48,136 nucleotides of DNA from positions 1 to 48,136 of IMG/VR virus record IMGVR_UViG_3300027896_000066. One strand, written 5' to 3'. The stretch is from a virus. Both the position numbers and the translations under genes were made by a program. The notes under the pieces were generated by a model, which searched no databases, was not told where the DNA came from, and saw only the letters and a list, made by a program, of their open reading frames with translations. This document shows, piece by piece, positions 18,121-44,524 of the stretch (its first letter is position 1; each line of letters opens with the position of its first letter).

Positions 18121-18147
18121 TGGATGTATTCCAACTGGAGATTTAAA

Positions 18148-18483: not shown

Positions 18484-18505
18484 ATTATAGATATAAGTAA
18501 ATTTA

Positions 18506-23832: not shown

Positions 23833-24129
23833 ATGCTATTATCTGAGGACGTTTTAAGCCGAGTCGACTATTATACATGTAACCGTTTTACGGAAGGTGG
23901 TAAAATGTCTTCTGTAACATTATATTGGAAAACAACATGGTGGCAGTTTTGGCTAGAACGGAAGCAGGTAATATCTATGTCTACTGTGCAATCTACTGGG
24001 GCGTCTATGAGATGTGCTGATAATGAGTGGATTGAGCTGGTAGAACAGTTAAAACATTGGTTTAATAACTTAACACCCAAGACACATACGGCAAAATTAA
24101 TAATATTTAAAGGTGGAAAAAATGAATAA
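23833..24129 (+). CDS. Hypothetical protein
   Basis: 98 residues beginning 1 nt after the membrane-protein stop (MLLSEDVLSRVDYYTCNRFT). Trp-rich in the middle (YWKTTWWQFWLERK). Its last 8 nt overlap the RtcB start. Not recognised. Confidence 0.55.
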   Translation: MLLSEDVLSRVDYYTCNRFTEGGKMSSVTLYWKTTWWQFWLERKQVISMSTVQSTGASMRCADNEWIELVEQLKHWFNNLTPKTHTAKLIIFKGGKNE

Positions 24130-25372
24130 CGAAAACGACTTACCATATAACCTTATTAAAGGATCGAACAATCACATAATAAAAGTATGGAATAAATTTG
24201 TTCCTATGGAATCTGGTGTGTTCGATCAGGCAAGATCCATAACTGAATTAAATGGTGTTGTAGGTCTATCGTTGATGCCTGACGCACATGTGGGTGCTGG
24301 CTCGTGTATCGGAACTGTTATTGCAACGACAAATATTGTCATTCCGGCAACAGTTTCGGTAGATATTGGTTGTGGTATGATTGCAGTTCAGCTTTCATTA
24401 AAAGCAACCGATCTACCAGACAACTTACATAAGCTTCGTACCGAGATTGAAATGATGGTACCAGTTGGCCAAGACGAGCACTCTATTTCTCGACTAAATC
24501 AGTCGGGACATCAAAATACACGAACAGTATTAAACAATCAATTTCGACAATTAGACAAGCAGTTGGATACAATAACGCTAAAACATTTACCAATCGAAAA
24601 GATGGTAAAGAATAGTGCAGAAAAAGCGTATCGCCAATTAGGATCACTTGGCGGGGGGAACCATTTTATTGAAATTTCTTTGGATGAAAATCAAAATGTA
24701 TGGGTAATGTTGCACTCTGGTAGCCGAGGTATTGGTAACGCAATAGGTCGTTACTTTATCGATTTGGCTAAAAAAGATATGGAGAAGAATAATATTCATT
24801 TGCCCGATAAAGATTTGGCATACTTACAGGAAGGTAGTCAGCACTTCGATGATTATATCGAAGCTGTCGAATGGGCTCAAGAATACGCTAAACGAAATCG
24901 TGATGCTATGTTAGAGCTTGTTATTACGGCTATGACACGGCATTTACCACCCTTTACTATTACTAAGAATGCCGTGAACTGTCATCATAATTATATCAGT
25001 AGGGAGGTACACTATGGGCAGAATGTAATTATTACTCGAAAAGGTGCTGTATCTGCACAGCACGGCGAGCTCGGAATAATTCCAGGTTCGATGGGTGCAA
25101 AAAGCTTCATTGTAGAAGGACTTGGAAACCAGGATTCCTTTTGCTCTTGTAGCCATGGTTCGGGCAGGGTAATGAGTCGCACTGCTGCTAAAAAGCTCAT
25201 CACAGTTGAGGATCATATCAAAGCAACCGAAGGGGTCGAGTGTCGTAAAGACGAGGGGATGATTGATGAATCTCCTGCTGCTTACAAAGATATTTTACAA
25301 GTTATGCGCTCACAGGAGGATTTGGTACGTATCGTACATACCTTAAAACAATGCCTCTGCGTTAAGGGTTAA
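24122..25372 (+). CDS. rtcB: RtcB-type RNA ligase
   Basis: 416 residues from ATG 24122, 6 nt after AAGGTGG; a GTG 9 nt earlier is the alternative. RtcB joins 2',3'-cyclic-phosphate and 5'-OH RNA ends using GTP and Mn. Visible motifs: LMPDAHVGAGSCIG, VDIGCGM (metal Cys), GSLGGGNHFIEI, MLHSGSRGIGNAIG, and the guanylylated His in CSCSHGSGRVMSR (H345). The length fits the shorter RtcB2-like group. All catalytic residues are present, so it is likely active, repairing tRNA or rRNA cut by host defence nucleases. Confidence 0.95.
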   Translation: MNNENDLPYNLIKGSNNHIIKVWNKFVPMESGVFDQARSITELNGVVGLSLMPDAHVGAGSCIGTVIATTNIVIPATVSVDIGCGMIAVQLSLKATDLPDNLHKLRTEIEMMVPVGQDEHSISRLNQSGHQNTRTVLNNQFRQLDKQLDTITLKHLPIEKMVKNSAEKAYRQLGSLGGGNHFIEISLDENQNVWVMLHSGSRGIGNAIGRYFIDLAKKDMEKNNIHLPDKDLAYLQEGSQHFDDYIEAVEWAQEYAKRNRDAMLELVITAMTRHLPPFTITKNAVNCHHNYISREVHYGQNVIITRKGAVSAQHGELGIIPGSMGAKSFIVEGLGNQDSFCSCSHGSGRVMSRTAAKKLITVEDHIKATEGVECRKDEGMIDESPAAYKDILQVMRSQEDLVRIVHTLKQCLCVKG

Positions 25373-25903: not shown

Positions 25904-26145
25904 TGACTGACGAAGAATGGGCGGCAATGATTCAGCAAAATGCCGATGCGCTGGTAGCACAGGGCTTTGTACGCCATCAGGCAAAGATAGATGCCCACTG
26001 GGAAAGTCATGTCGATGTCAGTTGGGAAGATTTAAACTTCTTCTTAGACAAATGCAGACGTGATAAGGATGAGGAATCTTTTAATACTGCCATGCGAGTG
26101 TTAGAAGCATTACGCAAACAAATTTTAGAGAGAAAGTCAAAATGA
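25903..26145 (+). CDS. Small hypothetical protein
   Basis: 80 residues (MTDEEWAAMIQQNADALVAQ), helical and charged. Coupled to both neighbours by 1- and 4-nt overlaps. Not recognised. Confidence 0.55.
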   Translation: MTDEEWAAMIQQNADALVAQGFVRHQAKIDAHWESHVDVSWEDLNFFLDKCRRDKDEESFNTAMRVLEALRKQILERKSK

Positions 26146-26624
26146 AACAATTAAACTTTAGTGTGAACAGCTGGCATTATTGGTTTGCTACTCGTGTAAG
26201 TTATGATCCACGATGTGATAACGAGAATATTTGCACATATTTGCGGCATGTTCTGGGTGGCATGTTGTTGGTTACTGTGCTTACTATAATAGGTACAATA
26301 GTTGCATACGGCTTAATTGCAATGCTTCTTGGTATTGGTTTTAGTTTGTTATATGGCGCATGGATATTTAGTGAGATTGGCGTAACAACATTCATTCTTA
26401 CAACAATAATGTCGGTATGGGCTGTTACATATTTTCTATTTACAGGAATAGGCGAATACAGGCACAACAGAAACGAAGCTTATAGGGATGCAATACGGAA
26501 TGGCACAATTCCACGACCGATTGACGGATTTGTTAAAAATGCTTACAAAAGTTGGAAACAAAAGTATTGCGTAAAGATTAATTTTATCGATAAGTCCACC
26601 GAAACAAAATGGGACGGCACTTAA
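26142..26624 (+). CDS. Membrane protein with two helices
   Basis: 160 residues. Hydrophobic segments at about 38-69 (LGGMLLVTVLTIIGTIVAYG, then LIAMLLGIGFSLLYGAWIF) and about 80-106 (TFILTTIMSVWAVTYFLF). Basic, polar N- and C-terminal tails. Function unknown; the 4-nt overlap ties it to the upstream small genes. Confidence 0.65.
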   Translation: MKQLNFSVNSWHYWFATRVSYDPRCDNENICTYLRHVLGGMLLVTVLTIIGTIVAYGLIAMLLGIGFSLLYGAWIFSEIGVTTFILTTIMSVWAVTYFLFTGIGEYRHNRNEAYRDAIRNGTIPRPIDGFVKNAYKSWKQKYCVKINFIDKSTETKWDGT

Positions 26625-27314: not shown

Positions 27315-27803
27315 ATGAAAATTATCACTAAAGTAGGTAACTTGCTGGATATTAAAGCTGGACACATTGTCCACGGTTGCAACTCGCTTGGCGCAATGGG
27401 TAGTGGTGTTGCGTTAGCAATTCGCAACATGTATCCAGGTGCGTACGAAAGTTATCGTGCAACCTTTGACAACGAAGGTTTGGAAATGGGATGGGCATAT
27501 CCTTACTGTCCAACACCAGAGCTTGTTATTTGGAATGCTATTACACAAGAATTTTATGGATCAGATGGCCGGAGATATGTTTCTTACGATGCAGTACAAT
27601 ATGCATTTAAAGAAATTAATGAAGCTATTCTTCACCCAGATGGACCTGCAAGTATTCCACAAGAAATACATATTCCGTTCATAGGTTCAGGTTTAGGAGG
27701 AGGATCGTGGGAAATTATTAAAGCTATCATCGAAGATACTTGTACTGTTCCTGTAACATGCTGGTCAATTAATGGTAAAATGCCAGACGGTAGTCCAGTT
27801 TAA
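27315..27803 (+). CDS. Macro-domain protein (ADP-ribose binding)
   Basis: 162 residues. Macro-domain landmarks: GNLLDIKAGHIVHGCNSLG (about 8-26), GSGVALAIRNMYP (about 31-43) and HIPFIGSGLGGGSWE (about 118-132, the phosphate-binding loop). These domains bind ADP-ribose and remove ADP-ribose 1''-phosphate or ADP-ribose from targets, resembling Poa1p-like members. Near RtcB and a phosphatase, it could clear ADP-ribosylated RNA or protein, or NAD-derived signals. Ribosome site AAAGGA. Confidence 0.88.
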   Translation: MKIITKVGNLLDIKAGHIVHGCNSLGAMGSGVALAIRNMYPGAYESYRATFDNEGLEMGWAYPYCPTPELVIWNAITQEFYGSDGRRYVSYDAVQYAFKEINEAILHPDGPASIPQEIHIPFIGSGLGGGSWEIIKAIIEDTCTVPVTCWSINGKMPDGSPV

Positions 27804-27840: not shown

Positions 27841-28947
27841 ATGTCTTACTATTTGAAACGTGGCGAAATTTTGTGGCCAACAGAAGAAGGCCAATTTGAT
27901 GTTCGCAGCCAACTTCCAGCAGGCACATACACTGTTGGGCATGATGTGGAAAAGGGTTGGTTCCTGAGTCCAATCACTGATTTTGTTATCACTGGTAAAA
28001 TCTATGGTAAAACAACACAGCAAGCCGAACGTATTATGAATACATTTCATAATCGGCCAAATAGTACCGGAGTATTACTGAACGGCGAAAAAGGTAGCGG
28101 TAAAACAATGCTAGCCAAAATGATTTCGCAAAAAGCTGCCGAGGAAGGCATTTCTACTTTGGTAATCAATACGCCATTCTGTGGCGACAGTTTTAATACT
28201 TTTATCCAATCAATCGACGAACCATGCGTTATCCTGTTTGACGAATTCGAGAAAGTATTTGATGACAAGCAACAAGAAGCCACGTTGACATTACTAGACG
28301 GTGTTTATCCAACCAAGAAATTGTTTGTGTTGACAGTAAACGACAAGTATCGCATCAACTCACATATGCGTAATCGCCCGGGCCGTATTTTTTACATGCT
28401 GGAATATAAGGGACTAGATGCAGCATTCATCGAAGAATACTGCAATGACAATCTAAATGCAAAGGAATACATTCCACAAATCATTCGCTTGACAATGCTG
28501 TTCGACTCCTTCAACTTTGATATGCTCAAAGCATTGGTTGAAGAAATGAATCGTTACAACGAAACGCCGAATCAAGCAATGGAAATGTTGAATGCTAAAC
28601 CGTTCGATGCAGGCTCTGTTCGTCACCATGTTAGTTGCTTTATCGATGGCAAAGAAATTACAAGTGGTTTCTGGCCCTTGTCTATTCGTGGCAATCCAAT
28701 TGCACAAGATGACTTGGAATTTTATATCGACCTTCCAACAAGCGACGACGACGACGACGACGAAGAAGAAGATAGCACTAGTGACCGGATTGAGCTGCAT
28801 GTTAGCCAAAACAATTTGAAGAAGATTGATGCTGAAGCTGGCACTTTTACTTATATCATGAATGAAGATAAACCAAATACAACAGTATTAGTATTTACTC
28901 GTGAAAATCAATCTAAATCAACGTATAAATGGACGGATGCATTTTAA
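27841..28947 (+). CDS. AAA+ ATPase, BCS1-like single domain
   Basis: 368 residues from ATG 27841 with AAAGGAA upstream; a longer frame from 27772 overlaps the macro gene without a ribosome site. Walker A is GEKGSGKT (82-89) and Walker B is CVILFDEFEKVF (129-140, D134 E135), followed by VLTVNDKYRINSHMRNRPGR (sensor and arginine region). After the ATPase domain there is an acidic run of six Asp, three Glu and an Asp (about 302-311). The N-terminal YYLKRGEILWPTEEGQFD recurs in T4-like phages. First gene of the AAA/TPR/PspA group. Confidence 0.85.
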   Translation: MSYYLKRGEILWPTEEGQFDVRSQLPAGTYTVGHDVEKGWFLSPITDFVITGKIYGKTTQQAERIMNTFHNRPNSTGVLLNGEKGSGKTMLAKMISQKAAEEGISTLVINTPFCGDSFNTFIQSIDEPCVILFDEFEKVFDDKQQEATLTLLDGVYPTKKLFVLTVNDKYRINSHMRNRPGRIFYMLEYKGLDAAFIEEYCNDNLNAKEYIPQIIRLTMLFDSFNFDMLKALVEEMNRYNETPNQAMEMLNAKPFDAGSVRHHVSCFIDGKEITSGFWPLSIRGNPIAQDDLEFYIDLPTSDDDDDDEEEDSTSDRIELHVSQNNLKKIDAEAGTFTYIMNEDKPNTTVLVFTRENQSKSTYKWTDAF

Positions 28948-28976
28948 TTAACAATAGGGCAGTAATGTCCTATAAT
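28948..28976 (+). promoter_or_regulatory. sigma70-like promoter
   Basis: TTAACA at 28948-28953, 17-nt spacer, TATAAT at 28971-28976, with AAAGGAA and ATG 29008 downstream; starts just after the AAA gene stop. Confidence 0.65.
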
Positions 28977-29007
28977 TTTATTACTTACTAAACAACTAAA
29001 GGAAATT

Positions 29008-30126
29008 ATGTACCGTAAACTAATCTTTCTCGCTAGCTTACTCTGGTGTATGAATGTATATACAATGCCGAAACCTTCGGAAGTTAATGCAGCAGAAGCA
29101 CACGGTGATTTTGCTACAGCAGAAGTACTATTAAAACAAGTGATTACCGAAAAACCAATGTCAAGTAGAGCTCATAGTGATCTAGGTGTATTATACGCCC
29201 GGGAAGGTAAGGTGGACTTTGCAACAATTGAGGCAAACAAAGCAAGACAGCTAGATACAGATGCGTTAGCAGTTATAGAATCTAAGAAGGTTTTAGATTC
29301 AAAAGCAAGTTCTGAATTATTATATGTATTGTTTGGAATCCCATTTGTAGGTATCGGAATCTGGTGTTTATATATGCTATACACTAGGTTTCGTAAAGTC
29401 CAAAAGGTACAAGATTTAGAAATTTTAGAATCCAAAGGTAAGATGATTAAGTTGCTTGATATGATTAAACAGCTAGATGATTCTGCATTAATTGCAAAGA
29501 CTGCTACCTACCCCGATGCAGAAAAAGTTCAAATTGTCAAACTTATTACTTCTTTACAGGTACAAGTGCGTAATATGTTAGCTGACATGAAAGATGGAGA
29601 TAATATTACACAAAATCGACTTTCTACAATGAAATCATATGTTGATGCTTCTGTAAATCAAGCAATTAATGGGTTACCTGCTGCAATTAAACAAGCTGTT
29701 GATAAAGAAGAGGACACAACAGCATGGGGCGCGCCACGTTTTACAGGTGGCGGCGACTTTGGTGGACCAGGGTATCGTAAGTATGGACATACTGTTGTTC
29801 ATAACGAACCTGCCCCAACTGTTATTCATCACTATCACGACACAGCACCTGCACAAGTTGCTCCAGTAATTGTGAACAACAGTGGCTCAGATATGTTGAC
29901 AGGAATGATGATTGGTGAAATGTTGAGTGATCATCACGACAGGGCAGTAGTTGTTGAACGTGAACGTGATTCCTACGAACGTTCGCCACGTAGTTCACGT
30001 GACGACGATAGTGATTCAAGCTCTAGTAGCGATAGTTACTCATCTAGTTCAAGTGATTCAAGCTCTAGTAGCGATAGTTACTCATCTAGTTCAAGTGATT
30101 CAAGCTCTAGTAGCGATAGTTACTAA
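29008..30126 (+). CDS. Exported TPR-like membrane protein, Ser-rich tail
   Basis: 372 residues. Signal-type start MYRKLIFLASLLWCMNVYT, a TPR-like helical repeat (about 25-85: AHSDLGVLYAREGKVDFAT), a transmembrane helix at about 105-128 (LLYVLFGIPFVGIGIWCLYM), then a coiled/charged region, a Gly/His-rich patch near 245-290, and a Ser/Asp/Tyr tail. The tail is built from a 42-bp exact tandem repeat (30013-30123). Membrane-anchored, tail probably cytoplasmic if the signal is cleaved. It is followed by a PspA-like gene, suggesting a membrane partner. Confidence 0.75.
   Translation: MYRKLIFLASLLWCMNVYTMPKPSEVNAAEAHGDFATAEVLLKQVITEKPMSSRAHSDLGVLYAREGKVDFATIEANKARQLDTDALAVIESKKVLDSKASSELLYVLFGIPFVGIGIWCLYMLYTRFRKVQKVQDLEILESKGKMIKLLDMIKQLDDSALIAKTATYPDAEKVQIVKLITSLQVQVRNMLADMKDGDNITQNRLSTMKSYVDASVNQAINGLPAAIKQAVDKEEDTTAWGAPRFTGGGDFGGPGYRKYGHTVVHNEPAPTVIHHYHDTAPAQVAPVIVNNSGSDMLTGMMIGEMLSDHHDRAVVVERERDSYERSPRSSRDDDSDSSSSSDSYSSSSSDSSSSSDSYSSSSSDSSSSSDSY
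30013..30123 (+). repeat. 42-bp tandem repeat, 2.6 copies, in coding frame
   Basis: Units begin at 30013, 30055 and 30097 (third partial, ending before TAA). Each encodes DSSSSSDSYSSSSS. Copies are identical at the nucleotide level, implying recent duplication or correction. Confidence 0.95.
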
Positions 30127-30153
30127 TAATTAATTCAATATAAAGGAAATATT

Positions 30154-30807
30154 ATGTCTTTACTGAGTAAAATGTTTAACTCACTAAGTGGTGCAGCCAA
30201 CGATGTAGTAGATGCACATCAGAATTTGGGTGCTAATGCACGTCAAAGTGTACGTGAGCTAGATACACAGCTTCAAGAAGCGGATTCTGCATTAATTGAT
30301 GTACGTGCTGAAGCAGAAATTCTAAAAGGTAAGAAAGAAAAAGGTGAAGCTGAGGTAGCTAAATGGCTACAAGCTGCAACGAATTCTGCAGGTAAGGATG
30401 ACGGGCTAGCTAAAGAGTGTTTAGTTAAAAAGGCAAATGCTAAAACTGCACTTGATGCAATCGTATCTTCTATTAATAAGTTCCAACCAACTGTAACTGC
30501 TTTAGAAACTCGTATTACAGATTTACGTAGTCGTCGAGATAGCTTGTCTAATCAAGCTGATTTGATCGGTGTACGTAGTGAAGTAGCAGATGTCGAACTT
30601 AAAGCTGCAACTATATTAGGTGCAGTAGGATCAGCTACGAGCCTGTCATCACAAGAAGATGCACTAGTACGTAAGGAAGCAAAAGCTCATGCTGCCACTT
30701 CAGTTGTAGCAGATCGTTCGGGCGAATCCCTTGAGGCGCGTGTTGCTGCATTGACATCGGGTCCAAGCATTGACGACGAACTGGCAGCACTAAAGGCATC
30801 TAAGTAA
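30154..30807 (+). CDS. PspA/IM30-like coiled-coil protein
   Basis: 217 residues, close to PspA (222). Starts MSLLSKMFNSLSGAANDVVD, then a long helical hairpin with QSVRELDTQLQEADSALIDV (about 31-50), DDGLAKECLVKK (about 83-94), a second long helix, and the end SIDDELAALKASK. The amphipathic N-terminus and C-terminal DDELAALK are PspA features. PspA oligomers bind stressed inner membrane; a phage copy could seal membrane damage or control lysis. Ribosome site AAAGGAAA. It is downstream of an AAA ATPase and a membrane protein. Confidence 0.85.
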   Translation: MSLLSKMFNSLSGAANDVVDAHQNLGANARQSVRELDTQLQEADSALIDVRAEAEILKGKKEKGEAEVAKWLQAATNSAGKDDGLAKECLVKKANAKTALDAIVSSINKFQPTVTALETRITDLRSRRDSLSNQADLIGVRSEVADVELKAATILGAVGSATSLSSQEDALVRKEAKAHAATSVVADRSGESLEARVAALTSGPSIDDELAALKASK

Positions 30808-30817
30808 TCATTACCAC

Positions 30818-30846
30818 TTGACTGCATAACAGTCGTATTATATAAT
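30818..30846 (+). promoter_or_regulatory. sigma70-like promoter
   Basis: TTGACT at 30818-30823, 17-nt spacer, TATAAT at 30841-30846. The predicted RNA begins inside a 12-bp hairpin (30846-30875). Confidence 0.78.
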
Positions 30847-30879
30847 TAGGGCATGTATTAAGTTACATGCCCTAATTTT
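30846..30879 (+). terminator. Hairpin plus TTTT at the transcription start
   Basis: Arms TTAGGGCATGTA and TACATGCCCTAA, loop TTAAGT, followed by TTTTG. It is a terminator shape overlapping a promoter -10, so it could end the PspA transcript, and as RNA form the 5' end of the next one. Confidence 0.65.
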
Positions 30880-30894
30880 GTATAAGGAACGGAA

Positions 30895-31413
30895 ATGATA
30901 GTATCTGCTTATAAATGTCCACACACTGGTAAACTGTTTAGTTTAGCAGACAAAGCCGAATATAAGAAACATGTCAATCACCATGCTGCTATATTGCGTA
31001 AGGAAATAAAATTTGCAAAAATAAAAGTAGGATTTGCTAATTGGCTTTCTGCGGAAAAATTAAATATTCCTACCGTCGAAGATATTGCTCCATGGTTCAT
31101 GAAAAATCAGCAAGAGATAATGGCCGGGCATACAAGAAACAATTATTGTTCAAAAACTCAAAGGACTAATATGATTACTATCCCAATCAATGAAGTATTG
31201 TATCAATATTGTTGTGCTACTCAATATCATATTAAAGAAGCGGAAGCAAAGAATGAAGATCCCGACTTTACAAAGTTGGATGATGTAAATGTACTGTTCA
31301 TATGTGATTCAAATACAGGATTAGAATCAGCAGAAACATTAGAATTTCCGGACGAGCAATCGTTATTATTTTTTAAACTAAAGTGGGAAGTATTAGCAGG
31401 TAAAGTGAAATGA
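30895..31413 (+). CDS. Hypothetical protein with N-terminal zinc-finger-like start
   Basis: 172 residues. The start MIVSAYKCPHTGKLFSLADKAEY with KKHVNHHAAIL looks like a treble of Cys/His ligands (C8, H10, H26, H29, H30). The C-terminus LEFPDEQSLLFFKLKWEVLAGK carries the D-E-x-(A/S)L-x-FKL motif shared with other small proteins of the window. Coupled to the next gene by a 4-nt overlap. Confidence 0.6.
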   Translation: MIVSAYKCPHTGKLFSLADKAEYKKHVNHHAAILRKEIKFAKIKVGFANWLSAEKLNIPTVEDIAPWFMKNQQEIMAGHTRNNYCSKTQRTNMITIPINEVLYQYCCATQYHIKEAEAKNEDPDFTKLDDVNVLFICDSNTGLESAETLEFPDEQSLLFFKLKWEVLAGKVK

Positions 31414-31814
31414 GTGCCTGGGATCACTTACCTAATTCAGAACATATAGATCGAATTATCAGGATAATCATGACTTCTACTGATTATTGGAAGAAACGGG
31501 GTAACAAAGAATACATCAAAGTTTGGGATCTGGTCGCGGCGGAATCAACAAAAAGTGGTAGAATGAAGTACGTATTTATTGCCTGGGAAGAAATTTGGGA
31601 TATACTTGAACGTCAAGACATCAACGAATATAATGACCTTACTTACGAATATAGCCGTGGAATAATTCTTGCATTGGCTACATTTGATGACTGTGCATAT
31701 ATGATTGACAGTGATCCCGATGAGCTTGACTTGCTTGGTATGCTTGGAGACTATCGAGCAGTATTATTGAAACCTTATGCCGAATATTTATTGACTATCA
31801 ACGCTGAACTATAG
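31410..31814 (+). CDS. Hypothetical protein
   Basis: 134 residues, helical (MSAWDHLPNSEHIDRIIRII). Trp-rich: VFIAWEEIWDILERQDI. Its stop overlaps the stop of the convergent endonuclease gene by a few bases, as expected if that element inserted just after this gene. Function unknown. Confidence 0.55.
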   Translation: MSAWDHLPNSEHIDRIIRIIMTSTDYWKKRGNKEYIKVWDLVAAESTKSGRMKYVFIAWEEIWDILERQDINEYNDLTYEYSRGIILALATFDDCAYMIDSDPDELDLLGMLGDYRAVLLKPYAEYLLTINAEL

Positions 31815-33353
31815 CTTGGTCCAAACATACACAGCATTGCCTGAATTCCAATATCGATCAAACTCATTATTCTTCATATTATCCCACTCCGATAATTCTG
31901 GGTCAAAGTTAGTTAATATATTCGCTAATTTGTGTTTTTGGTATTTAATTCTACTCTCAAATGTTCGATAATTATGTGTATAAGAGTACGATGCTCCGTT
32001 ATTTCTTATATGCTTAAATCCAAGTTTTTCATAGACAGTACCTGTTCCCCATCGTAGATCACAGAATGATACTATATCGCTAGCACCCAAATTATTTATT
32101 GCAAATTTAAACATTTTAGATGCTCCGCCAACTACATTAATATTCTTAAGATTACAAAATCTTAGTAGTTCGTATTGATAATTATTATATCTAGATTTAC
32201 CAAAGCTCATTGCTGCAACAATCTGATTATCGTGTTTTAAGCCCACATAAAAAGATGCTCCTGTATTACCTTGTATATGATTGTCTTTGAAAAATTTAAT
32301 TGCATCTTTTTTATCTAAAATCGAAATAACGGTCTTTCTTCCATACAAAGTAGTGTTTACTCCAACAAATGATGAAATACGTGATTTTACTAGTTCCTGC
32401 TTATCTTTCCACTCCAAATCTAAGATATGATATAATTTTATACCTTTAGATTTAGCTAAGACATCTTTTTCAATATGGTAATTTACTTTACCAGAAGAAT
32501 TTTCTGAATGCCAGAAAATACCATCATATTCAATTCCAATATTTAATTCCGGTAGGTAGATATCAATTTCTTTACCGTCTAAAACTTTCCGATCATTTAG
32601 TAATATAGTGCCACTATATATCGATTTAATAAAATCAAATACTTGCTGCTGTCCAACATTTGGGTGAATATCGATGCCAAAGTTTTTAAATTGTATGCAT
32701 AATTGAGTATGACCTATATTTAATTTGTTTGCAATATCCTTTATACTTACACCGGGCTTGTATAATTCAACTAATTCTAATTTATTGTATTTAACAAAAT
32801 ACGATTCGTCACTAAAATGCGATTGGCACTGACGTATCCTACCATATTTTTTCTGATGTGTAGAAGTAATTTTATCTTTGGTCTCTTGTAAATAACTAAT
32901 ATTCGTTACTCCATATTTTACAAGTATAGTATCTTTAATATCGTCTTGAACGATTTTTGAAAGGAAAGGATTATTAACACCAAATTTTTCAATCATTTTT
33001 TCTTGATAGTTTGTTTTGGCTGTGTCTGTTATTAAATATGTCTTTTTACCATATTTTTTAATACATGTTGCTACTATCTTATCTTTTACAGTATCACTGT
33101 TATGAGCACATTTTGATGAGCAAAAAAATCTATAGGAGTTATTCTTTATATTCCAGTTGACTTGCTTGCCACAGATACAGTACTGTATATGCATATTGTT
33201 TAGCAAATGCCACAACCTCTGTTTGGTGGTGGCAGAAGATAAGAAATTTGTATTATCGATAAGAAATTTCATAAAATCTTTATTTTTTATAAAATTTCTT
33301 AACTCGATATAATCGGAGTTAGCTAGTTGTAATTGTTGTATAGTAGGTATCAT
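31809..33353 (-). CDS. Homing-type endonuclease (EDxHD/Vsr-like)
   Basis: 514 residues. A Cys cluster (CICGKQ ... CSSKCAHN, about 57-82) is followed by repeats of the K-YG-N type (KYGVTNISYLQETKDKI; KFGVNNPFLSKIVQDDI), a helix-turn-helix stretch (GVSIKDIANKLNIGHTQLC), and a nuclease core GKEIDIYLPELNIGIEYDG with FWHSEN (about 261-285), matching the EDxHD layout. The last third (HIQGNTGASFYVGL ... VVGGASKMFKF) is shared with the 34995 and 37790 proteins. A free-standing mobile element on the opposite strand to its neighbours. Confidence 0.82.
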   Translation of the reverse strand: MIPTIQQLQLANSDYIELRNFIKNKDFMKFLIDNTNFLSSATTKQRLWHLLNNMHIQYCICGKQVNWNIKNNSYRFFCSSKCAHNSDTVKDKIVATCIKKYGKKTYLITDTAKTNYQEKMIEKFGVNNPFLSKIVQDDIKDTILVKYGVTNISYLQETKDKITSTHQKKYGRIRQCQSHFSDESYFVKYNKLELVELYKPGVSIKDIANKLNIGHTQLCIQFKNFGIDIHPNVGQQQVFDFIKSIYSGTILLNDRKVLDGKEIDIYLPELNIGIEYDGIFWHSENSSGKVNYHIEKDVLAKSKGIKLYHILDLEWKDKQELVKSRISSFVGVNTTLYGRKTVISILDKKDAIKFFKDNHIQGNTGASFYVGLKHDNQIVAAMSFGKSRYNNYQYELLRFCNLKNINVVGGASKMFKFAINNLGASDIVSFCDLRWGTGTVYEKLGFKHIRNNGASYSYTHNYRTFESRIKYQKHKLANILTNFDPELSEWDNMKNNEFDRYWNSGNAVYVWTKL

Positions 33354-33405
33354 ACCAGTACTTATCTCTTTTACCTATTGCGGGCGCTAATACAGAATTT
33401 ACCAG

Positions 33406-33434
33406 TTGACAGTATTAACTGTAAGTAGTATTAT
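33406..33434 (+). promoter_or_regulatory. sigma70-like promoter for moxR
   Basis: TTGACA at 33406-33411, 17-nt spacer, TATTAT at 33429-33434. A leader of about 55 nt follows, with CGGAG near the ATG at 33496. Confidence 0.7.
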
Positions 33435-33495
33435 ACATACATACAGAACAGTAACACAAAGAAGTTTTTATTTTTAACACAACGGAGAACACATA

Positions 33496-34587
33496 ATGGC
33501 ATTAGATACACATCGCACTGAACGTCCAAAGGATGTACGTACACTTTTAACACGTTGTATGAAAGTTGGTCGACCAGCAATGATATGGGGGCCACCGGGC
33601 ATTGGTAAGTCCGAACTGATTGCAGAAATTGGTATTGAGACAGGTCGACCAGTTATCGATATGCGTTTGTTGTTGCTTGAACCAACTGACATTAAAGGTA
33701 TCCCATACTTCGATCCAGATACAAAAACAATGAAATGGGCACAACCTGCAGACTTGCCAACAGATGAATACATGGCAGATGCAATTTTGTTTTTGGATGA
33801 AATTAATGCTGCACCACCAAGTGTACAGGCCGCAGCATATCAATTGATTCTAAATCGTCGTGTTGGTGAATATCATTTGCCAAAAGGTGTGTCGATGGTA
33901 TGTGCAGGTAACCGTGATAGCGATAAAGGTGTTACATATCGTATGCCAAGTCCGTTGGCTAATCGACTGGTTCATATCGAAATGAGTGCAAATTTTGAAG
34001 ATTGGCAAAAATGGGCAATCGGTGCTCGTGTACATCCAGATGTAGTTGGTTTCTTGACACATCATAAACAGAAATTGTTTAACTTTGATTCCAAATCACC
34101 CGAAAAGGCATTTGCCACACCGCGTTCGTGGGTATTTGTATCGCAGCTAATTGGTGATGATTTGCCAGAGTCAATGAATACTGCACTAGTGGCAGGAACA
34201 GTAGGAGATGGTCTTGCGGTTGAGTTTGCACAGCATCGTAAGGTTGCATCGCGTATGCCTAAGTCAGAAGATGTATTGATGGGTAAAGAAAAGACTCTGA
34301 ATGTTAAAGACTTGAGTGCAATGTATTCGTTGACGATTTCTATGTGTTACACACTACAAGAATGGGTAGCAAAGTCTAAAGAAAAAGAAGACGGGTTTGG
34401 CGTCAATGAATGGCATGAATGTGTCGATAACTTCTTTACTTTCATGATGGATAACTTCCAGACTGAAATGATCGTGCTTGGTGCTAAGACAGCTTTGCGC
34501 GATTACCAACTTCCGATTAATCATCGACAGTTAAAGACGTTTAAAACATTCCATGAGAAATTTGGAAAATATATTTTAGAGGACTGA
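33496..34587 (+). CDS. MoxR-family AAA+ ATPase
   Basis: 363 residues. Walker A is WGPPGIGKSE (31-40), then MRLLLLEPTDIKGIPYFD, Walker B is ILFLDEINAAPPSVQ (about 95-109) and the sensor region NRDSDKGVTYRMPSPLANR. This is the MoxR/YehL pattern. MoxR ATPases act as chaperone-like remodellers with a vWA-domain partner, which here is encoded at 39321, displaced by 4.7 kb of endonuclease and small genes. Preceded by a clear promoter and followed by a strong terminator. Confidence 0.92.
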   Translation: MALDTHRTERPKDVRTLLTRCMKVGRPAMIWGPPGIGKSELIAEIGIETGRPVIDMRLLLLEPTDIKGIPYFDPDTKTMKWAQPADLPTDEYMADAILFLDEINAAPPSVQAAAYQLILNRRVGEYHLPKGVSMVCAGNRDSDKGVTYRMPSPLANRLVHIEMSANFEDWQKWAIGARVHPDVVGFLTHHKQKLFNFDSKSPEKAFATPRSWVFVSQLIGDDLPESMNTALVAGTVGDGLAVEFAQHRKVASRMPKSEDVLMGKEKTLNVKDLSAMYSLTISMCYTLQEWVAKSKEKEDGFGVNEWHECVDNFFTFMMDNFQTEMIVLGAKTALRDYQLPINHRQLKTFKTFHEKFGKYILED

Positions 34588-34617
34588 AATTCCATCCAAA
34601 ATATTTTCTTAAATATT

Positions 34618-34644
34618 AAAAAGCCCGCCCTTAGCGGGCTTTTT
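34618..34644 (+). terminator. Rho-independent terminator after moxR
   Basis: AAAAAGCCCGC, loop CCTTA, GCGGGCTTTTT. Canonical. Confidence 0.93.
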
Positions 34645-34670
34645 CTTTAGTATAGAATTTGACTTATCAT

Positions 34671-34678
34671 GATAAATA
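34671..34678 (+). promoter_or_regulatory. Late-type promoter octamer GATAAATA
   Basis: GATAAATA, 31 nt before ATG 34710, with CTGGAG between them. Confidence 0.5.
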
Positions 34679-34709
34679 TGCTATATGTATGTTACTGGAG
34701 AAAAATTAA

Positions 34710-34919
34710 ATGCCACGAATAAAATATGCCGGGGCCGATGGAAAGAATCATTATTATTTTCCTGACATTTATATCCCAAAAGATAATTTATTAGTAGAAG
34801 TAAAGAGCCAATATACATATGATGGATTTACCGGTTGGTTAGATACAAATCTTGCTAAACAAAAATATTCCATACTAGCCGGATACAATTTCAAATTTAT
34901 GATTATGACACAGAAATAA
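34710..34919 (+). CDS. Nuclease-domain fragment related to endonuclease cluster
   Basis: 69 residues. YYFPDIYIPKDNLLVEVKSQ followed by YTYDG is the PD...ExK core, similar to YLPDFELLDTIIEVKSDYTY in the 34995 protein. It lacks the accessory domains of its neighbours, so it is either a minimal nuclease or the remnant of a larger one. It has its own octamer and CTGGAG ribosome site, which argues it is expressed. Confidence 0.65.
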   Translation: MPRIKYAGADGKNHYYFPDIYIPKDNLLVEVKSQYTYDGFTGWLDTNLAKQKYSILAGYNFKFMIMTQK

Positions 34920-34959
34920 CCACTTATCTTATCATAATTTACTTGTTCAAAGATCTAAG

Positions 34960-34988
34960 TTGACACCGGTAGTCGAATGTGTTATAAA
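34960..34988 (+). promoter_or_regulatory. sigma70-like promoter, leaderless type
   Basis: TTGACA at 34960-34965, 17-nt spacer, TATAAA at 34983-34988, then six bases to ATG 34995. Confidence 0.75.
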
Positions 34989-34994
34989 TACAGT

Positions 34995-36968
34995 ATGATA
35001 GAAAAATTAAGAGAAGCATGGCAACAATTTCAACCGAACTCATTTACAGTAAGCCTGCGGAAACAGATGCCCGATGTATATGCGTGGGTAATCGATCAGC
35101 CATATATAATTGCGACAAAAACAGTCGCAGCCAAGGCATATACACTCTTGTACCCAGTAGCACCTAAGTGCGAAAATACAAATTGTGAAAACACCGTAAC
35201 CACATTAAGCGGCAGCAAATGGTCAAGTTATTGTTCTAACCAATGCAGGGGCCAGTACAATTCACTTAAGAGCAGAGATAAGGCAAAATTAACATCTCAG
35301 CAGAACTGGGGAGTCGATAATCCAATGCAACATCAAGTAGTTAAAGATTTAGTAACTACATCTATGTTAGCAAATCACGGAGTCGCTCATGCCCTTCAAT
35401 CGACTACAATTTATGCTGAACGAACTAAGACTATGCTTGCCCGACACGGGGTTGAACATGCTGCCCAATCCCCTGTAATTCAGGCGCAAACACAGAGTGA
35501 CTGGATTAAGAAATATGGTGTAGATAATCCGATGAAGCTTATAATAATTAAGGATAAGGTGTGTACAACATGTCGGGATCGGTATGGAGTCGACCATGCC
35601 CAGCAGGATCCTGCAATAAGATCTGCCACTGAAAATACAAATATGGAAAGATATGGACATAAGTGCGCTTTTCAGAATGAGGAAGTTAAAGCAAAGTCGA
35701 GTGCAACAATCTATAAAAGATACGGGGTAGCAAATGTATCCCAGTCACCCATAATACATAGAAAAAAACTGATTACTTCATTCAAATCTAAAACATTTGT
35801 ACTACCGTCGGGAAAAATAATAAAACTTCAAGGTAATGAACCACAGGCTCTAAAAAGATTATTGGCCTATTTTGCCGAGAATCTTTTCTCGTTCGACTGC
35901 GAGACATTTGCGTATATATTAGATGGTAAGGCGCACATTTATCTCCCAGATTTTGAATTGTTAGATACAATTATAGAAGTAAAAAGCGATTACACATATT
36001 TGGCCGATCTAAATAAAAATTTACAGAAATTTAATGCCGTGATAGACAAGCGTGGCCATATGATATTGATTATGATTGAAGCCGGCCATATGCAAATTAT
36101 CCCGCTTTCGAAAGATATCCAAAATTTCGCCAGTCAATTCGAAGATTGCAAACAGCTTTATATAGTAGATGATACTTTTGTAAATCTATATTTCGAAAAT
36201 TCAAAATTAGCAGTAAAATTTTTTGATCCACGATTTGAGAATGATAAAATATATACCGATATATACGATAAGAGTAAACTAATTACTAAGTTTGAAGACT
36301 TGGGAATTCAACTAATGTTTGTAGATATAAATTACCTTAAGAATAATTTTTTATCGTTGTCTAACACATTACGGGCGAAAACCAATAAAAATATCGAAAG
36401 GCTATTTGCAAGAAAATGTATAGTAAGGAGTTTGATTGCATCTGAGGCTCGAACCTTTTACAACGCCCATCACATACAAGGATTTGCCGCCGGAACATAC
36501 CATTACGGGTTATTCTTCCAGGATCAGTTAGTCTCTGCCATGAGTTTCTCTACCCCCAGAAAAGGCATCGGTAGAGCCCGGGTGAATGGTTCATACGAGC
36601 TAAGCCGATTTGCGTCGTCTGTGCAGGTGATCGGTGGGGCAAGTAAACTAATGAAATATTTTGTAAAGGAAATTTCTCCTGTCGCTATATATTCCTTCTC
36701 TAATAATTTCTATAGTAAGGGTGATCTTTACCAAAAACTAGGGTTTACATTAGAGTCGAATGTACTGCCGTCGTATTCATATCTTGCACCAAATTCGTCA
36801 ATTTTAGAACATCGATTCGGATATACCAAACATAAATTAAAAAATATGCCGTACTATTCTGACGATATATCGGAAAAAGAAATAATGGAAAAGAACGGAT
36901 ATGTAAGAGTATATGACGCCGGTAAGAAATCTTGGATACTATATTTTTTATCACTTGATCTATCTTAA
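34995..36968 (+). CDS. Large homing-type endonuclease
   Basis: 657 residues from ATG 34995; the start aligns with the 37790 protein (MIEKLREAWQQFQ vs MLEQLKQLWTTIS), which rules out the longer frame. Order: Cys cluster (CENTNC ... CSNQC, about 57-85), five or more repeats of the form YGVxNPxQxxxIK (about 100-250), a PD-ExK-like core (YLPDFELLDTIIEVKSDYTY, about 315-334), and the shared C-terminal domain (HHIQGFAAGTYHYGLFF ... VIGGASKLMKYF ... GDLYQKLGF). A mobile nuclease between moxR and its vWA partner; its richer use of Cs differs from neighbours. Confidence 0.8.
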   Translation: MIEKLREAWQQFQPNSFTVSLRKQMPDVYAWVIDQPYIIATKTVAAKAYTLLYPVAPKCENTNCENTVTTLSGSKWSSYCSNQCRGQYNSLKSRDKAKLTSQQNWGVDNPMQHQVVKDLVTTSMLANHGVAHALQSTTIYAERTKTMLARHGVEHAAQSPVIQAQTQSDWIKKYGVDNPMKLIIIKDKVCTTCRDRYGVDHAQQDPAIRSATENTNMERYGHKCAFQNEEVKAKSSATIYKRYGVANVSQSPIIHRKKLITSFKSKTFVLPSGKIIKLQGNEPQALKRLLAYFAENLFSFDCETFAYILDGKAHIYLPDFELLDTIIEVKSDYTYLADLNKNLQKFNAVIDKRGHMILIMIEAGHMQIIPLSKDIQNFASQFEDCKQLYIVDDTFVNLYFENSKLAVKFFDPRFENDKIYTDIYDKSKLITKFEDLGIQLMFVDINYLKNNFLSLSNTLRAKTNKNIERLFARKCIVRSLIASEARTFYNAHHIQGFAAGTYHYGLFFQDQLVSAMSFSTPRKGIGRARVNGSYELSRFASSVQVIGGASKLMKYFVKEISPVAIYSFSNNFYSKGDLYQKLGFTLESNVLPSYSYLAPNSSILEHRFGYTKHKLKNMPYYSDDISEKEIMEKNGYVRVYDAGKKSWILYFLSLDLS

Positions 36969-36982
36969 ATATATGTTATACT
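36955..36982 (+). promoter_or_regulatory. sigma70-like promoter, leaderless type
   Basis: TTGATC at 36955-36960, 16-nt spacer, TATACT at 36977-36982, then six bases to ATG 36989. Overlaps the endonuclease stop. Confidence 0.65.
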
Positions 36983-36988
36983 ACAAGT

Positions 36989-37195
36989 ATGACTAAATCA
37001 GAACAATTTAAGCAAGAATTCCTGGCACTGTTGTCTAAATACAATGCCGAAATGAGGGTACGCGAATATTCTGCATCATGGCATACTTGTGCAGATGGTG
37101 TTGATTTTGATTTGGATGGCGAAACTATCGACGATGAATATGTAATCTATCCAACCGTCGAGTTTGGTATGTATACTACCGGAAATACAAAATAA
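36989..37195 (+). CDS. Small acidic protein
   Basis: 68 residues (MTKSEQFKQEFLALLSKYNA), acidic: DGVDFDLDGETIDDEY. Similar small proteins with a helical N-terminus and beta C-terminus occur in phages. No ribosome site; the ATG follows a -10 box. Overlaps the next gene by 1 nt. Confidence 0.6.
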   Translation: MTKSEQFKQEFLALLSKYNAEMRVREYSASWHTCADGVDFDLDGETIDDEYVIYPTVEFGMYTTGNTK

Positions 37196-37437
37196 TGGCA
37201 CAATACTCACTTAAGGTGTTTTACGAAACAGAGCAACTAGAGCGTTTCGAACATAGAACAAAGGCTAAACTTGTTTCTATACTATCCCACCCAAAATATG
37301 ATCGAGTGGGACAAACAGGTCCATTTGGTGAGGAGATGAAACATCCAAACAGATTTGAAATTTTTGATACAGTACGAGAAAAACTTTATCAAGGAAATAT
37401 AAAAGAAACATTGGCATTCATTGGGACACTGAAATGA
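37195..37437 (+). CDS. Small hypothetical protein
   Basis: 80 residues (MAQYSLKVFYETEQLERFEH). Coupled to both neighbours. A short ferredoxin-like or beta-alpha fold is possible; not recognised. Confidence 0.55.
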   Translation: MAQYSLKVFYETEQLERFEHRTKAKLVSILSHPKYDRVGQTGPFGEEMKHPNRFEIFDTVREKLYQGNIKETLAFIGTLK

Positions 37438-37610
37438 TAAAAGTGGGCAACAAGATAAAGATCTTACGTAAAGATATTTTTCATTTACAGCACCGATCAA
37501 ATAGGAACGGTACTGTGACTAATATCAATGGCGGATACATCACAGTTAAACCAACCTGGGTTAAGTGGGAAATTGGATTATTAATAAATGAAGTTAAAGG
37601 ATTAAAATGA
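37434..37610 (+). CDS. Small KOW-like protein, 58 residues
   Basis: Starts at the ATGA overlap with the previous gene: MIKVGNKIKILRKDIFHLQH, later NGTVTNINGGYITVKPTW. The VGNKIKIL and GTVTNINGGYITV segments look like a small KOW/SH3-type barrel. The end overlaps the next start by 4 nt, so it belongs to a coupled run. Confidence 0.6.
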   Translation: MIKVGNKIKILRKDIFHLQHRSNRNGTVTNINGGYITVKPTWVKWEIGLLINEVKGLK

Positions 37611-37786
37611 CAACAGCAGTAAAGTATATAATTTTGGAAGGCCGTGACAGATTTACATTTACGAACAATGTAAATACACACTTGGACGAAGGATGGCAAT
37701 TATATGGCAGTTCTACTACGACTACAGTAGTTCTAGGACATAATACTGTAACAACTTACTTCCAGGCATTAACTCATACTAAATAA
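37607..37786 (+). CDS. DUF1737-like small protein, 59 residues
   Basis: MTTAVKYIILEGRDRFTFTN, then VNTHLDEGWQLYGSSTTTTV. The pattern Y-I-x-L ... VNxxLxEGWxLYG is the DUF1737 signature seen in many phages. Coupled to the previous gene; ends 3 nt before the next endonuclease. Confidence 0.7.
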   Translation: MTTAVKYIILEGRDRFTFTNNVNTHLDEGWQLYGSSTTTTVVLGHNTVTTYFQALTHTK

Positions 37787-37789
37787 CTA

Positions 37790-39289
37790 ATGTTAGAACA
37801 ACTTAAACAATTATGGACAACCATATCGCATAGATCATTTTCTATAGTATTAAGAGCAAAGCATCCGCTCATTTATGCGTGGGTATTAGAATCCACTGAC
37901 GAGAATTTTGAAACATTCAGCGAAAGAGTCCAGTGGCTCATTAATCCGATTGAGCTAATGTGCATCAATGGAAAAAGAAAAAAATTCTCTGCCGCGAGAA
38001 GTGAATACGGTTTTTGCGGTAAACCGGGCGCCTGTGAATGTCATATGAATGCAATCGCGTTGAGATCGGGCAGTAGTGTATTCGGAACAGATGCTTTTTT
38101 GGAAGACCGTAAAACAACATGGACAAAAAAATACGGTACCGATAATCCACAAAAATTAAAATCATATAAAGATGCTGCGATTCTAAGAAATACGGGTAAA
38201 AAACATGCAGATAACAAAATAAAAGAATATGTAGAAAAAGGGTATGACACTGTAGTAGAAAGACTAAAAGATGTAGTAACGCCAAAGTTCATAATTAATG
38301 AATACAATGGATCATCGAGGCATAATGTTTATAGATGGGAATGTGTTAAGTGTAAGAAGGAGATATTGTCTCATATCGACTACGGGACAGTACCGAGATG
38401 TTCTGCATGTAATCCAAAGCAAATATCAACCGGTGAGCAGGAGTTATCGGATTATATTAAATCACTGGGTATAGATGTTGAAACAAATACAAAGAAAATA
38501 ATTGCACCGCAGGAATTAGACATATTCATACCCTCGGCTGGTATAGCGTTCGAATATAATGGATCCTATTGGCACTCGTCAGCAAAAAAGGATAAATTTT
38601 ATCATGTTGACAAATATCTTTTGTGTAAAGAAAAAAATGTCCATCTTATACAGATTTTCGAGGATGAATGGCTAACTAAGAAGGATATAATTAAATCGCG
38701 AATACGCAGTATATTAGGTGTCAGCGATAAAATATACGCCAGGAAGTGTGAAGTACGGTCTATAAATGGTACAACGTCACGAAATTTCCTTACCCAATAT
38801 CATTTACAAGGGTATGTATCATCTTCCGTAAATCTAGGTTTATATTTCGAGGACAGATTAGTTGCACTAATGACATTTGGTCTTTCGAGATTCAATAACA
38901 GAGCCGGATACGAATTGTTGAGGTACTGCTCTGCCGGGACAATTGTGGGCGGTGCCTCAAAATTATTTTCTTATTTTATATCTACATTTAATCCTAACTC
39001 AGTCATATCATATGCCGACAGATGTTGGTCCAATGGTAACTTATACCGGAAGATGGGTTTTATCGACGTCACAAAAGACTCAAGGAATACTGGATTTTTT
39101 TATGTGAAGGGCAACTCTAGGTATCACCGATCATCTGTAACAAAACAATTACTGGTTAAAAATGGTGGCGACGCGACGCTAACAGGCGACAATTTAGCTA
39201 CGCAGGCTGGCTATCACAAAATTTATAATTGCGGAAATTATAAATTTTTATACGAATCGCCTGTTGACAATAAGAGTAAAATCAACTAA
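37790..39289 (+). CDS. Homing-type endonuclease (EDxHD/Vsr-like)
   Basis: 499 residues. N-terminal helical domain similar to the 34995 protein, one KKYGTDNPQKLKSYKDAA repeat, a zinc-type pair (CVKCKK ... CSACNP, about 188-215), then the nuclease core LDIFIPSAGIAFEYNGSYWH (about 243-262) with KEKNVHLIQIFEDEW. The C-terminal domain (YHLQGYVSSSVNLGLYF ... IVGGASKLFSYF) is shared with the other two. Third large nuclease inserted beside the moxR-vWA pair; its end overlaps the vWA promoter. Confidence 0.82.
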   Translation: MLEQLKQLWTTISHRSFSIVLRAKHPLIYAWVLESTDENFETFSERVQWLINPIELMCINGKRKKFSAARSEYGFCGKPGACECHMNAIALRSGSSVFGTDAFLEDRKTTWTKKYGTDNPQKLKSYKDAAILRNTGKKHADNKIKEYVEKGYDTVVERLKDVVTPKFIINEYNGSSRHNVYRWECVKCKKEILSHIDYGTVPRCSACNPKQISTGEQELSDYIKSLGIDVETNTKKIIAPQELDIFIPSAGIAFEYNGSYWHSSAKKDKFYHVDKYLLCKEKNVHLIQIFEDEWLTKKDIIKSRIRSILGVSDKIYARKCEVRSINGTTSRNFLTQYHLQGYVSSSVNLGLYFEDRLVALMTFGLSRFNNRAGYELLRYCSAGTIVGGASKLFSYFISTFNPNSVISYADRCWSNGNLYRKMGFIDVTKDSRNTGFFYVKGNSRYHRSSVTKQLLVKNGGDATLTGDNLATQAGYHKIYNCGNYKFLYESPVDNKSKIN

Positions 39290-39292
39290 AAT
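39264..39292 (+). promoter_or_regulatory. sigma70-like promoter for the vWA gene
   Basis: TTGACA at 39264-39269, 17-nt spacer, TAAAAT at 39287-39292, inside the end of the endonuclease gene. AAAGGAG precedes ATG 39321. This makes the vWA gene independent of the disrupted moxR operon. Confidence 0.75.
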
Positions 39293-39320
39293 ACATCATA
39301 TACAAACAAAGGAGTAGCAA

Positions 39321-40505
39321 ATGGCAATCGATAACAGTCCAGAAGCAGTTAAAGAACAACTTGTAAGAGCTCGTATTTCATTACTTTTGCAACAACCTTT
39401 CTGGGGTAACTTGGCTACAAGACTTATTTTAAAAGATGCTACAGATGATGACTGGTGCCCAACAGCGGCAACGGACGGTCGTTATTTTTACTATAATCGA
39501 AATTTTATCAGTAAATTAAATAAAGCTGAAACAGTATTCTTGGTAGCTCATGAGGTTGAACACTGTGTTTATGATCATATGAGTCGTCGAGGAAGTCGTA
39601 AACCTAAAATGTGGAATGCTGCCGCAGACTATGTTATTAATTACGAGCTGTACGAGCATAATGTTGGTAAACTTCCAGATCCAAAAACATCTGGTGTACA
39701 GGCATGTTTTGATGCAAAGTACAAAGGAATGTTTGCAGAAGAAGTTTATGAACTGTTGTTGCAAGATCCGAATAGTAATTTCCCAGAGTTCGATATACAT
39801 CTTGAGCCGGGTGACGGTAAGGGCGAGCCGATGACAGCAGAAGAACGTCGAGTATTGGGCGATGAGATTCGTTCTGCTGTTATGCAGGCAGCAAAGGCAG
39901 CAGGTGCTGGTAATACTCCTGGCGGCGTAAAACGCATGTTAAAGGATTTGGTTGAGCCACAGATGGACTGGCGAGAAGTACTAAATATGAAAATTCAATC
40001 TATGATTAAGAATGATTTTACATGGAGTCGTTGTTCACGTAAAAGTCAATCAAGTGGAATTTATCTACCTGCATCTAAAGAAGATGTACGTGTAGAAGCA
40101 GCAGTATCAATTGACTGTTCTGGCTCAATGAGCGAACCTATGTTACGTGATTTACTAAGCGAAACTAAAGGTATTATGCAGCAATTTCGAGACTTTAAAC
40201 TACGAGTATGGTGTTTTGATACTAAGGTATATAATGAAGTATTGTTTACACCGGACAATATTGATGAAATCGATGACTATGATATTAAAGGTGGTGGTGG
40301 TACTGACTTCATGTGTAATTGGACTTATATGAAAGAAAATGATATTGTGCCAGAGCGGTTCATTATGATGACTGACGGATATCCTTACGGATCATGGGGC
40401 GACGAGAATTATGTAGACACTTTGTTTTTGATTCATGGTGATCCTGGTCATCGATTGGTGGCACCGTTTGGCATGACAGCATGGATCGACGCTCCTAGCA
40501 AGTAA
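39321..40505 (+). CDS. Zincin-like + vWA protein, MoxR partner
   Basis: 394 residues. The N-terminal part has AHEVEHCVYDHM (H77, E78, H81), an HExxH metallopeptidase-like site found in the DUF2201-type proteins that pair with MoxR. The C-terminal vWA domain has the MIDAS motif AVSIDCSGSMSE (D265, S267, S269), then GGGGTDFM and MMTDGYP. Such proteins are activated or remodelled by their MoxR ATPase and act in protein or metal-centre assembly. It is the natural partner of the 33496 ATPase. Confidence 0.9.
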   Translation: MAIDNSPEAVKEQLVRARISLLLQQPFWGNLATRLILKDATDDDWCPTAATDGRYFYYNRNFISKLNKAETVFLVAHEVEHCVYDHMSRRGSRKPKMWNAAADYVINYELYEHNVGKLPDPKTSGVQACFDAKYKGMFAEEVYELLLQDPNSNFPEFDIHLEPGDGKGEPMTAEERRVLGDEIRSAVMQAAKAAGAGNTPGGVKRMLKDLVEPQMDWREVLNMKIQSMIKNDFTWSRCSRKSQSSGIYLPASKEDVRVEAAVSIDCSGSMSEPMLRDLLSETKGIMQQFRDFKLRVWCFDTKVYNEVLFTPDNIDEIDDYDIKGGGGTDFMCNWTYMKENDIVPERFIMMTDGYPYGSWGDENYVDTLFLIHGDPGHRLVAPFGMTAWIDAPSK

Positions 40506-44518: not shown

Positions 44519-44524
44519 GCTAAT

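Follow-up and report, generated by a model that had tools for sequence, protein, structure and literature searches.

A 48,136-base linear virus record (IMGVR_UViG_3300027896_000066; the window, in its full length) encodes a PspA/IM30-family protein next to an exported single-pass protein with tetratricopeptide repeats and a transmembrane segment (TPR-TM), and we found PspA paired with an exported membrane partner in all seven viral contigs that carry a PspA of this kind. The pair lies in a 12.7-kb stretch (positions 27841–40505), with no nucleotide match in isolate phages, for which the original prediction had proposed a single five-gene envelope-control system: an AAA ATPase, an exported TPR/TM protein with a Ser-rich tail, a PspA-like protein, a MoxR ATPase, and a protein combining a HEVEH motif with a vWA domain. 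All five genes are present as it described. They are intact, are identified by curated profiles (Pfam, PHROG), and are coding, because pairwise comparisons with relatives show purifying selection (ratios of nonsynonymous to synonymous differences, pN/pS, from 0.08 for vWA to 0.55 for TPR-TM, on which selection is weakest). The idea of a single system is nevertheless contradicted by co-occurrence and by the layout of transcription units, with about four units bounded by promoter-like sites. We conclude that the stretch holds three units: the TPR-TM and PspA pair, the AAA ATPase, and the MoxR and zincin-vWA pair.

Pairing of viral PspA with a membrane partner

In the window, TPR-TM (29008–30126, + strand; identified by profile matches, a predicted model, and homologues) precedes PspA (30154–30807, + strand; PF04012, E 2.3e-13). 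We scanned for promoters as sigma-70-like consensus matches only and used sites of 11/12 or better, all of which, in the window and in seven relatives, lay on the + strand. One wholly intergenic site (TTAACA-17-TATAAT, 28948–28976, + strand, 11/12) stands before TPR-TM and PspA, a second intergenic site (TTGACT-17-TATAAT, 30818–30846, + strand) opens the next unit after PspA, and no promoter-like site separates the two genes. Further consensus matches precede MoxR (33406–33434) and zincin-vWA (39264–39292), and a sequence scan placed a terminator-like hairpin after MoxR (34618–34644). Because promoter-like sites flank the pair, none falls within it, and others precede MoxR and vWA, a two-gene unit is supported and a five-gene operon is not; judged from sequence, the TPR-TM and PspA transcription unit (28948–30807) is well supported. 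In one relative, L003 (contigs other than the window carry our L numbers), the inferred transcription unit consists of TPR-TM, PspA, and AAA, with AAA third.

In all seven contigs (the window, L002, L003, L087, L088, L077, and L158), PspA is directly adjacent to the gene of an exported protein with one transmembrane segment and an S/G/D-rich tail, on the same strand, where the two genes overlap or stand at most about 55 bp apart. The count of seven is a minimum: scans of IMG/VR for PspA kept returning the same contigs, and the pattern-based search was narrow. The extracytoplasmic domain of the partner is TPR in five of the seven and TPM in the other two (PF04536, E 2.6e-7, in L077; by sequence in L158), and in the partners checked, basic residues follow the transmembrane segment, implying that the C-terminus is cytoplasmic. 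Gene order is TPR then PspA in the window clade, across which the pair is retained at 48–73% protein identity, and PspA then partner elsewhere. In L087 (296 kb) and L088 (178 kb), both found by PspA-only scans, TPR-TM directly follows PspA; in L077, from the AAA scan, and its relative L158, from a PspA scan, PspA overlaps the gene of a protein with a signal peptide, a TPM domain, one transmembrane segment, and an S/G-rich tail. This difference in order between lineages indicates that the genes stay together for functional reasons and not because an ancestral arrangement was frozen.

The same pairing occurs in bacteria. A plasmid search returned PspA followed by TPR-TM in Paraburkholderia fungorum (plasmid, NZ_CP099644), and a Burkholderiales sweep returned the pair, in the same order, in another genome (1 of 200). 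In a 38-sequence tree, the PspAs of the window, L002, and L003 group with the two TPR-linked Burkholderiales PspAs (support 93/96), and those of L087 and L088 are not resolved. For the window clade, the pair is likely a host-derived cassette on the evidence of its sequences. When genome contigs were scanned with the TPR protein, three loci came up, none with an adjacent PspA, and the nine closest PspAs inspected in a class-wide sweep had no TPR or TPM neighbour within the 1.5 kb available. PspA is also carried by other mobile elements: on the conjugative plasmids L011 and L012 (from Citrobacter and Serratia), PspA/IM30 genes are followed by small hypothetical genes of similar size.

The viral PspA and its exported partner

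The window PspA matches PF04012 at 50.7 bits (Pfam cut-off 33.9) over residues 3–216 of 217 and by phmmer finds Vipp1 (8qbv) over its full length at 2e-7, including a match to the C-terminal DDELAALKA. Against TIGR02977, the E. coli-type equivalog, it scores 42.5 bits, below the cut-off of 242.95. These profile matches identify a genuine member of the PspA/IM30 family that is not an orthologue of E. coli PspA. The AlphaFold model (predicted local distance difference test score, pLDDT, 73 overall and 88–96 in the hairpin core) places helices at residues 3–78 and 83–157 in a long hairpin, and a Foldseek search with it gave Vipp1/PspA as best matches (E 3.5e-5); VIA-align ranked unrelated helical hairpins as high, with PspA unlisted, and decides nothing. 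The protein is therefore predicted to adopt an ESCRT-III-like long helical hairpin, with putative membrane binding and assembly into rods or rings. Between the window and L002 its pN/pS is 0.27, with synonymous divergence (dS) nearly saturated. Searches of 50,697 isolate phages by tblastn gave no match for the window PspA or TPR-TM, nor for the PspAs of L088 and L077; those of L087 and L003 gave only weak hits, to Saclayvirus-type proteins and to two faecal scaffolds that lack annotation. Read by eye, genes on these scaffolds look bacterial (a PcrA-like helicase; an enzyme like Tgt and a protein like YajC), and we set the scaffolds aside as probable host DNA.

TPR-TM has a signal-like N-terminus, one transmembrane segment at about residues 100–126 followed by basic residues, and a tail whose last 60 residues are 72% S/G/D. 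The window protein gives weak matches to TPR (TPR_16, 0.0012) and its relatives stronger ones (TPR_19, 1e-6, in L088), and homologues occur in L002, L003, L087, L088, L018, L024, and Burkholderiales. The predicted structure comprises a signal helix, two TPRs, a long transmembrane helix that runs into a three-helix bundle (pLDDT mostly above 90), and a disordered Ser/Asp-rich tail. This model would place the TPR pair in the periplasm and the bundle and tail in the cytoplasm in vivo. Foldseek searches with it returned TPR matches only, none below E 0.001, and no informative match to the bundle. The Ser-rich tail is encoded by an exact 42-bp tandem repeat (30010–30124, + strand; 2.7 copies, 100% match in a repeat search), which suggests recent slippage.

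Neighbouring ATPases and other genes of the locus

The AAA ATPase (27841–28947, + strand; PF00004, 5.8e-9; phrog_2376, 4.8e-94; Walker A GEKGSGKT), for which an alternative upstream ATG at 27772 is possible, belongs to a family present in 376 isolate phage records. AAA, MoxR, and vWA form a local cluster in nine IMG/VR contigs (the window, L002, L003, L017, L018, L019, L021, L022, and L024), only three of which carry PspA. The slot between AAA and MoxR holds TPR-TM and PspA in the window and L002, TPR-TM alone in L018, TPR-TM with a 204-residue exported transmembrane protein in L024, the 204-residue protein alone in L017, L019, and L021, and neither in L022; in L003, TPR-TM and PspA stand just before AAA and the 204-residue protein follows it. 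Because this slot varies, we regard AAA, MoxR, and vWA as constant at the locus and PspA as optional. Co-conservation, by which the original prediction proposed that its claim be checked, was thus found for AAA, MoxR, and vWA together and for TPR-TM with PspA, and the two sets coincide in three of the nine contigs. The 204-residue multi-pass protein (L003 5255–5869) belongs to phrog_19575, a family whose function is not known. A band-7/SPFH protein (PF01145, 2.9e-8; phrog_11908; L002 4041–5306) is encoded 2–5 kb upstream of AAA in three members of the clade, L002, L017, and L024.

MoxR (33496–34587, + strand; phrog_1297, 7.4e-97) and its partner, a zincin metallopeptidase with vWA (39321–40505, + strand; PF13203, 1.1e-37; PF09967, 3.3e-11; phrog_1314), in which HEVEH and DxSxS are intact as judged by eye, have matches in 824 and 750 records of isolate phages, respectively. 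Their best isolate matches (56% for MoxR and 49% for vWA) are in the Pseudomonas jumbo phage PA5oct and its kin, and PA5oct keeps the order QueE-like gene, RNase H/exonuclease-type gene, MoxR, homing endonuclease, vWA, HNH; no TPR-TM or PspA is annotated there, and neither a PspA nor an AAA of this family occurs in the record. A survey of jumbo phages (Iyer et al. 2021) described such a chaperone pair, MoxR with a vWA protein fused to an N-terminal metallopeptidase, and proposed a role in virion assembly (PMC7824862), with which none of our observations conflicts. The window pair is of the same kind, with nothing novel in itself, and differs in being interrupted by homing endonucleases; virion assembly is most likely its function. 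MoxR and vWA are near-adjacent in L003 and L017, whereas in the window they are split by a small gene and two homing endonucleases (34977–36968, + strand, phrog_3339, 3e-84; and 37790–39289, + strand, phrog_3339, 1.4e-115), and PA5oct has one endonuclease in the same gap. Another mobile homing endonuclease gene (31809–33353, − strand; phrog_3339, 2.9e-105) is absent from L003. L088 carries two tandem zincin-vWA copies (17383–18618 and 18957–20270) after one MoxR, and a DUF2828/DUF7788 protein is encoded upstream of its PspA.

Directly upstream of AAA is a macro-domain gene (27315–27803, + strand; PF01661, 4e-5; PADLOC DarG, 8e-15), found in the same place in L002 and L017–L024, that is, in most relatives; its product is, by sequence, a candidate antagonist of DarT-type DNA ADP-ribosylation. 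A protein with hydrophobic membrane stretches (26142–26624; FNxxSWHF...AYKSWKEKFCV) and no family match is conserved throughout the clade, where its gene precedes the macro-domain gene, and in L087 it is encoded just after TPR-TM. An RtcB RNA ligase lies at 24113–25372 (PF01139, 6e-123); an RtcB-like gene separates MoxR from vWA in L022, and RNA ligase/RtcB genes stand near MoxR-vWA in phage Phosso and near AAA in Pumpernickel. Elsewhere in the window are an S11 D-Ala-D-Ala carboxypeptidase-like gene (44510–45298; PF00768, 1.8e-29) and a saccharopine dehydrogenase-like gene (19873–21336, − strand; PF16653, PF03435), the latter an unusual one to find in a phage. The called start of the carboxypeptidase-like gene overlaps a promoter-like site (44491–44518) with a perfect 12/12 match, and the gene may therefore begin further in.

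Proposed function, alternatives, and known relatives

With moderate confidence, we postulate that the pair is a co-transcribed membrane-maintenance cassette analogous to the PspA-plus-anchor half of Bacillus subtilis pspA-ydjGHI and guards the inner membrane during infection. The proposal builds on the gene identities, the strict adjacency, the partner architecture, and the presence of the same pair in bacteria. In B. subtilis, PspA is bound and anchored by the TPM membrane protein YdjH, which brings it to the membrane together with YdjG and the band-7 protein YdjI (PMC8581546). By analogy, the phage would make a cytoplasmic, peripheral-membrane, ESCRT-III-like PspA together with an exported one-pass partner that senses or marks stressed membrane and brings PspA to its inner face, as YdjH does with YdjG and YdjI. 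Stress-dependent recruitment of viral PspA would follow from this analogy and from the band-7 gene in the locus of three relatives. Once there, PspA might polymerise and plug or stiffen the membrane, so that proton-motive force is held while a large phage replicates. Binding between the two proteins and protection of the membrane are putative, as is their purpose: the benefit could be shielding of the infection from pore-forming or depolarising abortive-infection (Abi) effectors, from envelope damage or leaks, or from a second phage, or interference with PspA-linked control of the cyclic oligonucleotide-based antiphage signalling system (CBASS).

Several observations weigh against this proposal. 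Saclayvirus PspA-like proteins lack such a membrane neighbour (TaPaz and D22 were examined), the window PspA has no close relatives among isolate phages, and L018 and L024 carry a TPR-TM-like protein with PspA nowhere in their records, which would fit a different role for this protein. TPR-TM of the window has a non-canonical signal peptide. Whole-chain structural matching is not PspA-specific, which makes the fold alone weak evidence, and the Burkholderiales grouping falls just below the usual support bar. Relaxed promoter matches are not enriched over shuffles (65 vs 64.8), and for this reason the transcription layout rests on the strongest sites. Finally, a role of PspA in virion assembly or in the timing of lysis is just as conceivable.

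Viral PspA could alternatively be a counter-defence decoy, replacing host PspA in immune signalling, where a type II CBASS cyclase is kept PspA-conjugated and inactive, or blocking depolarising Abi. PspA-linked control of CBASS has been reported (PMC11153139), an anti-Abi hypothesis has been published for the PspA of phage SeF3a (PMC9409062), and the DarG-like gene sits just upstream of AAA; we nonetheless consider a decoy unlikely, as it leaves the constant exported partner unexplained. It is improbable, in our judgement, that the pair is a mere passenger, an acquired host cassette without strong phage function that swaps through the AAA-MoxR slot. The varied content of that slot among the nine relatives and the Burkholderiales sister grouping of PspA would fit a passenger, yet the PspA pN/pS of 0.27, at nearly saturated dS, the retention of the pair across the identities given above, and its own promoter-like site argue against one.

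The evidence is less favourable still to one integrated five-gene system in which AAA and MoxR-vWA remodel membrane complexes with PspA and TPR-TM, which we think quite improbable. In its favour, no more than 10 kb separates AAA from PspA in five of the seven PspA contigs, and the two share the inferred transcript in L003; MoxR-vWA is likewise at most 10 kb from PspA in L088, L003, and the window, and L002 has it close by. E. coli RavA-ViaA, a MoxR-vWA pair, is reported to act at the inner membrane (PMC9489729). In contrast, AAA is absent from the whole L088 contig and is not near PspA in L158, and MoxR-vWA, present in every record tested, is 76–100 kb from PspA in L087 and L077. The promoter-like sites are separate, and the isolates number about 800 for MoxR-vWA and 376 for AAA, compared with none for the window PspA and TPR-TM. 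The co-localisation of PspA with AAA and MoxR-vWA is suggestive only, and envelope control, the role originally predicted for all five genes, is plausible for TPR-TM and PspA and unsupported for MoxR-vWA. We consider highly improbable a viral ESCRT-III/Vps4-like machine, in which the neighbouring AAA would build and take apart a PspA polymer, held by the exported TPR or TPM protein as sensor, to remodel or seal the host inner membrane in infected cells. This ATPase has a classical AAA domain with a core nearest the p97/Cdc48 type by sequence and no MIT match among the Pfam results listed; it might act on a PspA polymer, although it is usually found without PspA.

The name of PspA comes from its response to phage, but whether phages themselves make use of PspA has hardly been explored. 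The phage pair offers a compact two-gene system for asking how PspA is recruited and whether it serves upkeep of proton-motive force, resistance to Abi or CBASS membrane immunity, or exclusion of rivals, and the Burkholderiales pair offers a cellular handle. We know of no study of the function of that bacterial pair, which is homologous to the viral one (40% identity to the L003 PspA), with adjacent genes on the same strand and the same TPR, transmembrane, and tail architecture, and differs in being bacterial and in having the gene order reversed relative to the window.

Among known systems, B. subtilis pspA-ydjGHI likewise encodes PspA with a membrane protein that joins a folded domain to a low-complexity segment; the likeness is closest in L077 and L158, where the partner domain is TPM, as in YdjH, and extends to the band-7 gene nearby in L002, L017, and L024. 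The window system differs in being phage-borne, in having TPR rather than TPM (PF04536 has no match in the window, nor has the band-7 family PF01145 in its 48 kb), and in having no YdjG counterpart that we could see. Unlike the pspFABC phage-shock operon, it has no PspC: PF04024 has no match in the window or in five PspA-bearing viral contigs, possibly fragments, with a positive E. coli control. Operons of PspA, TPM, and band-7 are listed in a 2024 survey of the phage shock protein (PSP) response, in whose main text neither a TPR partner of this kind nor any virus is named (PMC11237479). PspA-like proteins are found in other phages, namely Kuttervirus SeF3a gp125 (phrog_1203), Saclayvirus PspA/IM30, and phrog_26980, but the window PspA matches none of these PHROGs at E 0.01. 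The statement that no phage system of this make-up had been described therefore holds for the full set of genes and not for phage PspA alone or for phage MoxR-vWA, both already described; it is the paired membrane partner of phage PspA that appears undescribed. What is new is that the membrane partner of a viral PspA can be interchanged between TPR and TPM types, a variation on the theme of PspA plus an anchor.

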